Shown: in pieces, positions 4,261 to 38,209 of the stretch
Position numbering within the stretch: the stretch's first letter is position 1
Layout: every line of letters begins with the position of its first letter
Source of the DNA: Nitrosarchaeum sp.
GTDB lineage: Archaea; Thermoproteota; Nitrososphaeria; Nitrososphaerales; Nitrosopumilaceae
DNA: 49,282 nt
Assembly: GCA_023264875.1 (NCBI GenBank)
Contig: JAHFUX010000004.1
Coordinates: forward strand, 1-49,282
Direction of reading: 5' to 3'
Made by a program: the position numbers and the translations under genes
The notes under the pieces: model-generated
What the model was told of the DNA's origin: nothing
What the model saw: the letters and a program-made list of their open reading frames with translations, nothing else
Database searches by the model: none

Positions 4261-4544
4261 TGTGTGAGCTGGAGCACGATACACTGCTACGGCAGAGGAA
4301 ACTCCTCCCTCCATACAGGAAATGTGATCCGGAGATGGATAATCAGAGATGATTGGCAACGGAACAGAAAATAATCCAACCTGGCGCACAATGATGGCAA
4401 AACCTGAGATTTCCAGAGAAGGAATGAAAAAGACGCCCCACATGGAGCAAAGCCAAACAGAACTATAGGATCCTGTACCAAGTTCAGGTAGGCTGCAAAG
4501 CGTAATATCGTGAAAACAGAAGGAGGGTTACTCCCAGCACACAC
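4261..4544 (+). ncRNA. rnpB: RNase P RNA (archaeal)
   Basis: This gap is less AT-rich than its surroundings and holds no convincing ORF. Near the 5' end is GAGGAAACTCC (4295-4305), close to the universal RNase P core GAGGAAAGTCC. Near the 3' end is ACAGAAGGAGGGTTAC (4516-4531), matching the conserved ACAGAA...GGCTTAC region. The two ends pair: TGTGTG...CTGG at 4261-4272 with CCAGCACACA at 4534-4543, forming P1. The middle contains GGAACAGAAA and GGCAAAACC stretches expected for the P7-P10 and P11-P12 core. The RNA is the catalytic subunit of tRNA 5' maturation. Ends are set by P1 and may be off by a few bases. Confidence 0.88.
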
Positions 4545-36009: not shown

Positions 36010-36043
36010 CATTAATAAGGTAATATACCGTACCATACGGTAT
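36010..36043 (+). promoter_or_regulatory. Promoter with 19-bp palindromic operator on the start site
   Basis: A TATA-like ATTAATAA (36011-36018) lies about 27 bases before ATG 36042. Between the two is ATACCGTA-CCA-TACGGTAT (36025-36043): two perfect 8-bp arms around a 3-base centre, ending inside the start codon. The palindrome would cover roughly -17 to +2 of a leaderless transcript. Its position directly before a DNA-binding protein gene suggests autorepression. Confidence 0.6.
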
Positions 36044-36389
36044 GATGCGAGCAAGACTGACATACATACCAATAGAAGTAGCAGACCAATTCGAAGATTT
36101 TATTATAAAACGAGATGTCCAAATACTAGATGCAGTAAAAGCAAGAACACGTGATTACAGTACATTATCTCTTCTGAAATTACTGTATCAGCTTAGAGGA
36201 AATCCAATGACGTTTTCAGATCTGTATTCAAAATCAAAAATAAGAATGAAAAAATCATTTCTAAATTATTTACATCTTTGTGTAAATTATAACTTTGTGC
36301 AAAAAGAAGCAATAGGGTCTAACATGATCTATTCCATAACAGACAAAGGAAGAACCATGTTGAATTTGTTTATTCATAAAAGTAATTAG
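36042..36389 (+). CDS. Winged-helix transcriptional regulator, probably autoregulated
   Basis: 115 residues from ATG 36042 (a second ATG at 36045 is equally possible). After RARLTYIPIEVADQFEDFI, the segment from about 43 to 110 looks like a winged helix: LLKLLYQLRGNPMTFSDLYS, KSFLNYLHLCVNYNFV, and IYSITDKGRTML as the wing and last helix, as in archaeal MarR/PadR-like small regulators. The palindrome over its start is the probable target. PAC2 follows 22 bases downstream, and purM beyond, so it may regulate those too. Confidence 0.75.
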   Translation: MMRARLTYIPIEVADQFEDFIIKRDVQILDAVKARTRDYSTLSLLKLLYQLRGNPMTFSDLYSKSKIRMKKSFLNYLHLCVNYNFVQKEAIGSNMIYSITDKGRTMLNLFIHKSN

Positions 36390-36411: not shown

Positions 36412-37137
36412 ATGCAAGAAGCGTTTCCAGAAGCAGAAGTATTTGAAATTAAAAAAACAAAACTCAACAGCCCAATAATATTGGCAGGGTTTGTAGGTGC
36501 AGGTCTTGTAGGACCACTTGCAATTAGTCACATCATCGAAGAATTAAAAATGGAGGAGATAGGATTGATGAGATCAAAATATCTTCCGCCATCAACTGTT
36601 TTTATGAAAGGCAGATTACGTCATCCTTTCAGATTTTATGCAAACAAAGAAGGTACAATATGTGCAATAATTTGTGAAATAACATTAAGAATAGAAGGAC
36701 TGTACTCACTTGTTTCAGCCATTTTAGATTGGGTAGAGAAAAAAGGCTCAAAAGAAATTGTAATTTTAGATGGGATAGCAAGTGAAGAGCATGATGATAA
36801 AGCATATTGTGCAGCAGGAGAGGATTTGATAAGAATGATGGCAGACAAAGACATCAGTATGATTTCACAGGGATTTATCACTGGGATTCCAGGAGGAATT
36901 TTAAATGAATGCATTGTAAGAAAAATTCAAGGAATATCTCTACTTGCAAAAGCAAACAAAACATCGCCAGACCCAGCAGCGGCATCGACGTTGATAGAGG
37001 CATTAAATCGATTCTACGATATGAGAATAGATACATCTGATTTGGAAAAGGAAAAAGATAGAATTAATTCTGAATTTAGCGAATTGTCTCAAAAATATGT
37101 TGAACATAGAGAAGAGTTTGCTGGCATGTACATGTGA
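36412..37137 (+). CDS. PAC2 family proteasome assembly chaperone-like protein
   Basis: 241 residues. The PAC2 (former DUF75) fold is indicated by SPIILAGFVGAGLVGPLAI near the N-terminus, KEIVILDGIASEEHD, ITGIPGGILNEC and PDPAAASTLIEALNRF. A short C-terminal coiled coil follows (about 208-236). Eukaryotic relatives help build the proteasome alpha ring; archaeal members are thought to have similar or ATP-grasp-linked roles, unproven. It shares an operon with the winged-helix regulator. Confidence 0.85.
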   Translation: MQEAFPEAEVFEIKKTKLNSPIILAGFVGAGLVGPLAISHIIEELKMEEIGLMRSKYLPPSTVFMKGRLRHPFRFYANKEGTICAIICEITLRIEGLYSLVSAILDWVEKKGSKEIVILDGIASEEHDDKAYCAAGEDLIRMMADKDISMISQGFITGIPGGILNECIVRKIQGISLLAKANKTSPDPAAASTLIEALNRFYDMRIDTSDLEKEKDRINSEFSELSQKYVEHREEFAGMYM

Positions 37138-37186
37138 GTCAAAAACTAGGCAAATTCTTTTATTCACAGCAAATACGCATGAAACT

Positions 37187-38209
37187 ATGGTCTTAACCTA
37201 CAAAAAGGCAGGCGTGGACATAGCCAAAATCAAACAAAGTCAAGCAGCAATAGGCAAGATGATTGAATCAACACACAAACTCCAAAAAATGGCAAAAATC
37301 ACACATGGTTTTGGACATTATGCTGGAATTGTAGAAATTCCAGGAGGAAAATTATTAGCTACTCATACAGATGGTGTAGGAACCAAAGTAGTAATTGCAA
37401 ATTTGATGAAAAAATACAACACAATTGGAATTGATTGCGTTGCAATGAATGTAAATGACATAATCTGTATTGGTGCAACTCCGGTTTCATTTGTAGATTA
37501 TATCGCTGCAAACAAAAATGATCAAAGAATTTTCAAAGGAATCGTAGAAGGATTGGTAAAAGGTGCAAAGAAATCGGCAATGCCAATTGTAGGAGGAGAG
37601 ACAGCAATAATGCCAGATGTCATTGCAGGAAAAGGATTTTCATTTGATCTAGCTGGAATGGTAGTAGGTCTTGTTTCAAAAAAAGACATGGTACTTGGAA
37701 ATAAAATAAAAAAAGGAGACATTATCATAGGTGCAAAAAGTAGTGGAATACATTCCAACGGATATTCATTGGCAAGAAAAGCGCTTTTAACAAAATATTC
37801 CATAAAAGACAAAGTAAAAGGAGTGGGAGTAATAGGAGAATCGCTTTTAACACCCACTGAAATTTATGCAAAACCAGTTTTAGAAATAATTCAAAAGTGC
37901 AAAGTGAATGGGTTGGCACACATTACAGGTGGAGCATTTACGAAATTACTCCGCCTCAAAAAAATAGGGTATGACATAGATTCACTACCAACAATTCCAC
38001 CCATAATGAAATTAATTGAAGAACAAGGTGTGAAACAAGATGAAATGTATAAAACATTTAACATGGGCGTAGGATTTTGTGTTGTAGCATCAAAAGATCA
38101 AGCAGGTAAAATAAAATCAATATTTAAAAAACACCATATTTCAAGTCAGGAAATTGGTCAAATTACGTCTAGAAAAGGAGTTTTTGTGAATTCTACAAAA
38201 ATTGCATAG
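37187..38209 (+). CDS. purM: Phosphoribosylformylglycinamidine cyclo-ligase (AIR synthetase)
   Basis: Purine synthesis step 5: FGAM plus ATP gives AIR. 340 residues from ATG 37187 (MVLTYKKAGVDIAKIKQ, the normal PurM start); a 90-base in-frame extension upstream is not credible because it overlaps the PAC2 end. Motifs: ATHTDGVGTKVVIA, GIDCVAMNVNDIICIGATP, GGETAIMPDV, KSSGIHSNGYSLAR and HITGGAFTKL, all in order. It is followed by a transporter gene, with no other pur gene in the window. Confidence 0.95.
   Translation: MVLTYKKAGVDIAKIKQSQAAIGKMIESTHKLQKMAKITHGFGHYAGIVEIPGGKLLATHTDGVGTKVVIANLMKKYNTIGIDCVAMNVNDIICIGATPVSFVDYIAANKNDQRIFKGIVEGLVKGAKKSAMPIVGGETAIMPDVIAGKGFSFDLAGMVVGLVSKKDMVLGNKIKKGDIIIGAKSSGIHSNGYSLARKALLTKYSIKDKVKGVGVIGESLLTPTEIYAKPVLEIIQKCKVNGLAHITGGAFTKLLRLKKIGYDIDSLPTIPPIMKLIEEQGVKQDEMYKTFNMGVGFCVVASKDQAGKIKSIFKKHHISSQEIGQITSRKGVFVNSTKIA

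Follow-up and report, generated by a model that had tools for sequence, protein, structure and literature searches.

What does a palindrome laid across the start codon of a small DNA-binding protein gene control? In the window, the whole 49,282-nucleotide stretch of Nitrosarchaeum DNA that was analysed, an earlier note had described such an element between a TATA-like box and the start of a winged-helix gene, with PAC2 and purM downstream, and had proposed an autorepression circuit over a gene set that links protein quality control with purine synthesis. Read from the window sequence, the element is a 19-bp palindrome, ATACCGTACCATACGGTAT, composed as ATACCGTA-CCA-TACGGTAT; it lies exactly where the note had placed it, downstream of the TATA-like element ATTAATAAGG, and ends on the first two bases of the regulator ATG (Table 1). 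With up to three mismatches allowed, the window contains no other match, and dinucleotide shuffles give an expectation of 0.01. The two downstream genes were likewise found as claimed. Our analysis predicts that this palindrome belongs to a family of control sites which ammonia-oxidising archaea have also kept at radA and at two genes for tiny zinc proteins, and comparison of the sequences lends good support to a putative autorepression circuit whose set comprises radA and two orphan zinc microproteins.

Table 1. Features at the regulator locus (window coordinates) and further copies of the putative operator in the same genome
Feature	Position	Strand	Basis or remark
TATA-like element of the regulator promoter, ATTAATAAGG	36011..36020	+	sequence; spacing to operator shared with orthologs
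Putative operator (the 19-bp palindrome), 2-bp overlap with ATG	36025..36043	.	sequence; conserved in orthologs
Operator unit 1, TACCGTA, TATA-proximal	36026..36032	.	ortholog alignment
Operator unit 2, TACGGTA	36036..36042	.	ortholog alignment
Winged-helix regulator, 115 aa	36042..36389	+	start probably 36042 or 36045; about 70 orthologs in family
PAC2-family protein (proteasome assembly chaperone-like)	36412..37137	+	probably co-transcribed; not a constant member of the system
Conserved TATA-like element of purM	37155..37167	+	separates purM from the regulator transcript
purM	37187..38209	+	probably outside the regulon
Operator at radA	C12:92300-92316		overlaps the radA ATG
Operator at the CxxC...CxxH protein gene	C25:46649-46665		gene divergent from trpE
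Operator at the 35-aa micro-ORF	C27:11390-11406		ORF absent from annotation

The regulator promoter and its neighbours

The earlier note had staked its reading on conservation of the palindrome upstream of orthologs, and we recovered the operator at 79 of 80 named regulator loci, the sole exception being L276, whose protein match begins only at residue 6. Further orthologs that we inspected also carried it at the start codon, apart from a few copies that were degenerate or cut by a contig end. In most orthologs with a recognised TATA word, TTAATA begins 14 bases 5' of the operator.

The downstream genes fared differently. PAC2 follows the regulator at most loci, often by 25–30 bases, and probably shares its transcript where present. 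Several species have no PAC2 behind the regulator, such as Nitrosotalea devanaterra, where purM comes directly next; in genome G203 the regulator lies far from PAC2 and the operator stays with the regulator, none being found at PAC2; and genome G211 retains PAC2 without a regulator in front. purM has a conserved TATA-like promoter of its own, TTCTTTTATTC, about 25–30 bases before its start. The proposed purine and proteostasis regulon was thus rejected for purM, owing to that promoter, and weakened for PAC2, which is often, not always, the next gene. Elsewhere in the window, Rfam identifies an archaeal RNase P RNA gene at 4264-4542.

The putative operator pattern and the promoters that carry it

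Alignment of the sites revealed a conserved core of TAC-N-GTA, 3 or 4 bases, and a second TAC-N-GTA, in which each 7-bp TACNGTA unit is palindromic by itself and the unit centres are mostly C or G in either orientation. The long dyad is the commonest form, with centres C then G in 104 of 190 sites, and other forms occur; at the regulator gene, Nitrosotalea and two other genera have an 11-bp instead of a 10-bp spacing. From these alignments, a pair of TACNGTA units with a spacing of 10 or 11 bp describes the site better than one dyad does. The exact pattern TACNGTANNNTACNGTA has four copies in the genome of the window, which is Nitrosarchaeum-like by its closest named orthologs, against 0.015 expected from its dinucleotide composition. 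The 15 other genomes searched with it have 2–5 copies each, and the reversed pattern occurs 0–1 times. Across 30 near-complete genomes, we counted 2–5 exact sites per genome, with a reversed-pattern control of about 0.3. Two scans of viral contigs returned 11 matches, none with a plausible archaeal-promoter pattern, and use of the operator by viruses was rejected on that ground. Our literature searches found no description of the motif or the regulon.

A genome-wide motif search, suggested earlier as a way to other targets, did uncover further sites, at genes other than purM. Four promoters carrying the operator are common across Nitrosopumilaceae genera: those of the regulator, of radA, of a 61–72-aa CxxC...CxxH protein, and of a 35-aa C2H2-like micro-ORF, MIQCEYCPRGFIDTAIGLAEKTFHELLHEPEVVNK. 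Neither zinc microprotein found a convincing family in Pfam, NCBIfam, PHROGs or PDB. The micro-ORF is very likely a real protein, because residues C4, C7, F11, L18, H24 and H28 are invariant and pN/pS is 0.24 over 32 distinct sequences. A coiled-coil gene farther downstream was the first-guess target of this fourth site and was discarded, the 35-aa ORF just after the operator being its true neighbour; a T-rich stretch lies between the two genes. At the third site, trpE appears a less likely target than the CxxC gene: the CxxC gene is the constant partner, and in several genomes trpE is preceded more closely by a TATA-like box of its own, TTTAAATA. On the trpE side of the operator, a conserved stretch, GAGGATCCCAAAATGGAGGGGCATAACTGGGC..TTGGGA..CCCTCAGTT, directly follows the site in genera g5 and g10 (L141:2988, L146:3015, L376:1110, L193:1501), with apparently paired changes between genera. 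It has no credible Rfam match, shows no more than mild stability when folded as a single sequence (z -1.3), and is possibly a small RNA or trp leader.

Counted from the first base of the TATA word, the site follows at 14 bases in the regulator promoter and many radA promoters and at 7 bases in that of the micro-ORF; at the CxxC gene, the TATA word GTACCTTTATA directly follows the site. The operator consequently fills the stretch from TATA box to start codon at the regulator and radA, and abuts the TATA box on its upstream side at the CxxC/CxxH gene. With every site in or touching the core promoter, repression is the favoured mode of action. Archaeal TATA boxes lie about 25 bases from the transcription start, and this spacing implies that the regulator, radA and micro-ORF transcripts are nearly leaderless and do not include the dyad in full.

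Lineage-specific sites were also recovered. Genome G219 has an operator at the start of an Orc1/Cdc6 gene (L365:285-301, on a 4.3-kb contig), genus g9 (L370, L373) has one at the promoter of a third orphan zinc microprotein, MEKSTCYRCGTDGLSWSQEFHRQTGKWKLENHKGCSLS, and G076 and G203 carry extra operators at ORFs without assigned function. These are single cases that hint at DNA transactions. A different repeated element, TACNGTANNNNTACNGTA, occurs three times in about 100 bp between two divergent small ribbon-helix-helix-like genes (L229:1501-1604, G183:C58) and is probably the operator of another regulator.

The regulator protein and its co-occurrence with the operator

The regulator yields only weak Pfam matches, and the TrmB domain (PF01978) is not among them at E-values up to 0.1; against the Sso10a chromatin family (NCBIfam NF053610) it scores 15.4 bits, below the 60-bit cut-off. 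In an AlphaFold model based on 31 orthologs, residues about 40–112 are confidently placed as a winged helix, with helices at 41–53, 58–65 and 70–82, a wing at 86–99 and a further helix at 101–111. The nearest solved folds are AspA, AF1382, Sso10a-2 and HxlR/ArsR-type regulators. AspA of plasmid pNOB8 (PDB 4rs8, 5k5q) is the best fold match (Foldseek E 1.5e-4, TM about 0.5–0.7) and a weak sequence match (E 0.058, 18–20% identity). Both proteins are small archaeal winged helices, but AspA sits in a partition operon, whereas the regulator neighbours cofH, PAC2 and purM, with no partition partner. In our sample of the order, we found the regulator in 50 of the 52 genomes belonging to its family; outside the family we obtained two weak partial matches only.

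Co-occurrence was counted in genomes at least 90% complete. All 30 such genomes with the regulator have at least two exact sites, whereas none of the five without it (G084, G217 and G228 of genus g7; G189 and G211 of g11) has an exact site at the target promoters, the one exact match in G228 being unrelated to these promoters. The target genes are largely retained in these five genomes. In g7, where both the regulator and PAC2 are absent, radA and the CxxC gene persist, and each promoter keeps one unit with the other decayed; at radA the TATA-proximal unit 1 alone remains. Genera g7 and g11 form separate clades in a RadA tree whose backbone is poorly resolved; regulator losses being few, two or three events underlie the co-occurrence. 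The Cenarchaeum-like g11 genome G189 retains at radA a site with one mismatch, TACGGTACGATACAGCA, as well as an exact TACNGTA pair at 11-bp spacing, with a TATA-like box beside it, where a DNA N4/N6 methyltransferase gene begins (L377, C1:907300-907317). Such sites in a genome with no detectable regulator imply either that a diverged regulator was missed or that another protein reads them.

The autorepression suggested by the earlier note is therefore upheld in part: the position over the core promoter, the family-wide conservation and the joint loss of regulator and operator all speak for it, but the regulated set had been named wrongly. We infer that the winged-helix protein very probably binds these operators and that, once bound, it quite likely represses its targets. 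On the same comparative grounds, the gene probably encodes a small autoregulated repressor.

Proposed releasing signal, alternative readings and known systems

The regulator would bind paired TACNGTA units one helical turn apart (10–11 bp), probably with one winged helix per unit, and would thereby block TBP/TFB or RNA polymerase at each promoter. A signal would then release it, and RadA, the two zinc microproteins and the repressor itself would rise, together with PAC2 in most species. The sites are placed differently from promoter to promoter, and activation may occur at one of them. DNA damage or replication stress is our first choice of signal, because RadA is the sole well-understood target, and is put forward tentatively. 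LexA and a classical SOS regulon are missing from archaea, where the control of repair genes is largely open (PMC2246294); since a general SOS-type control of radA is not established in them, a damage signal would be notable.

The best-known parallel is the LexA/SOS system, in which a repressor controls its own gene and the recombinase gene (recA there, radA here), along with small accessory genes, by way of a dyad operator placed at the core promoter; here too, putative operators lie at the gene for the repressor and at that for the recombinase. The differences lie in the regulator, which at 115 aa consists of a winged helix only and has no LexA or S24 peptidase match, in the very small regulon and in the archaeal core promoter, so that by analogy it is the circuit logic, not the protein, that resembles SOS. 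An unlikely elaboration is that Nitrosopumilaceae have a circuit of SOS type arisen independently of LexA, in which the autorepressor would sense DNA damage, perhaps via RadA filaments, and derepress RadA and the two zinc microproteins, which in turn would act on recombination or on the repressor itself. The damage motif of the Sulfolobales is the hexamer ANTTTC. Their DNA-damage regulators Orc1-2, TFB3 and ArnA (PMC9738581, PMC6934391, PMC10470591) likewise exert archaeal damage-response transcription control, but they are other proteins, and their hexamer differs from the motif found here. In the Sulfolobales damage response, radA is little or not induced (PMC2246294).

Rather than damage, the regulator might sense redox state through a thiol, like OxsR or HxlR/YodB, and induce RadA and the zinc proteins when oxidative or nitrosative stress sets in. 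All of 31 diverse orthologs share Cys80, YodB, QsrR and SqrR are among the structural neighbours, and archaeal OxsR, a single-domain TrmB regulator, works as a single winged helix with one conserved cysteine (PMC9426492). However, in the monomer model Cys80 is placed towards the end of the recognition helix, where it is probably part of the hydrophobic core, and not at the OxsR dimer-helix position; OxsR also differs in motif and targets, and we saw no thioredoxin or peroxidase gene with an operator. We consider a redox sensor unlikely. Coupling of the regulon to the cell cycle or replication, without induction by damage, seems less likely again: periodic RadA expression over the cell cycle has been reported for Sulfolobus (PMC2246294), and both the Orc1/Cdc6 operator and the resemblance to the plasmid segregation protein AspA fit such a role, but that operator occurs in G219 only, and we saw no operator at a gene for cell division or segregation.

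It is improbable that another transcription factor binds the sites and simply counts the winged-helix gene among its targets. Autoregulation is deduced from position only, and g11 keeps near-sites without a detectable ortholog; against this, g7 lacks the regulator and the paired sites alike, and the operator is kept at nearly every named locus, moving with the regulator gene in G203. Finally, an RNA hairpin at the mRNA 5' end, an idea invited by the overlap of the inverted repeat with the start codon, is rejected as extremely improbable by start-site geometry, since TATA spacing places transcription initiation within or past the dyad at three promoters (regulator, radA and micro-ORF), the site lies upstream of TATA at the CxxC gene, unit centres vary, and many sites are not long dyads.

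With a repressor that reads paired TACNGTA units as the preferred reading, the analysis brings to light a conserved 35-aa zinc micro-ORF that had no convincing match in the protein-family libraries searched, and describes a candidate self-regulated switch, previously undescribed, that might act like the bacterial SOS response. It yields a candidate repressor, an explicit operator and four promoters in one of Earth's most abundant archaeal groups.
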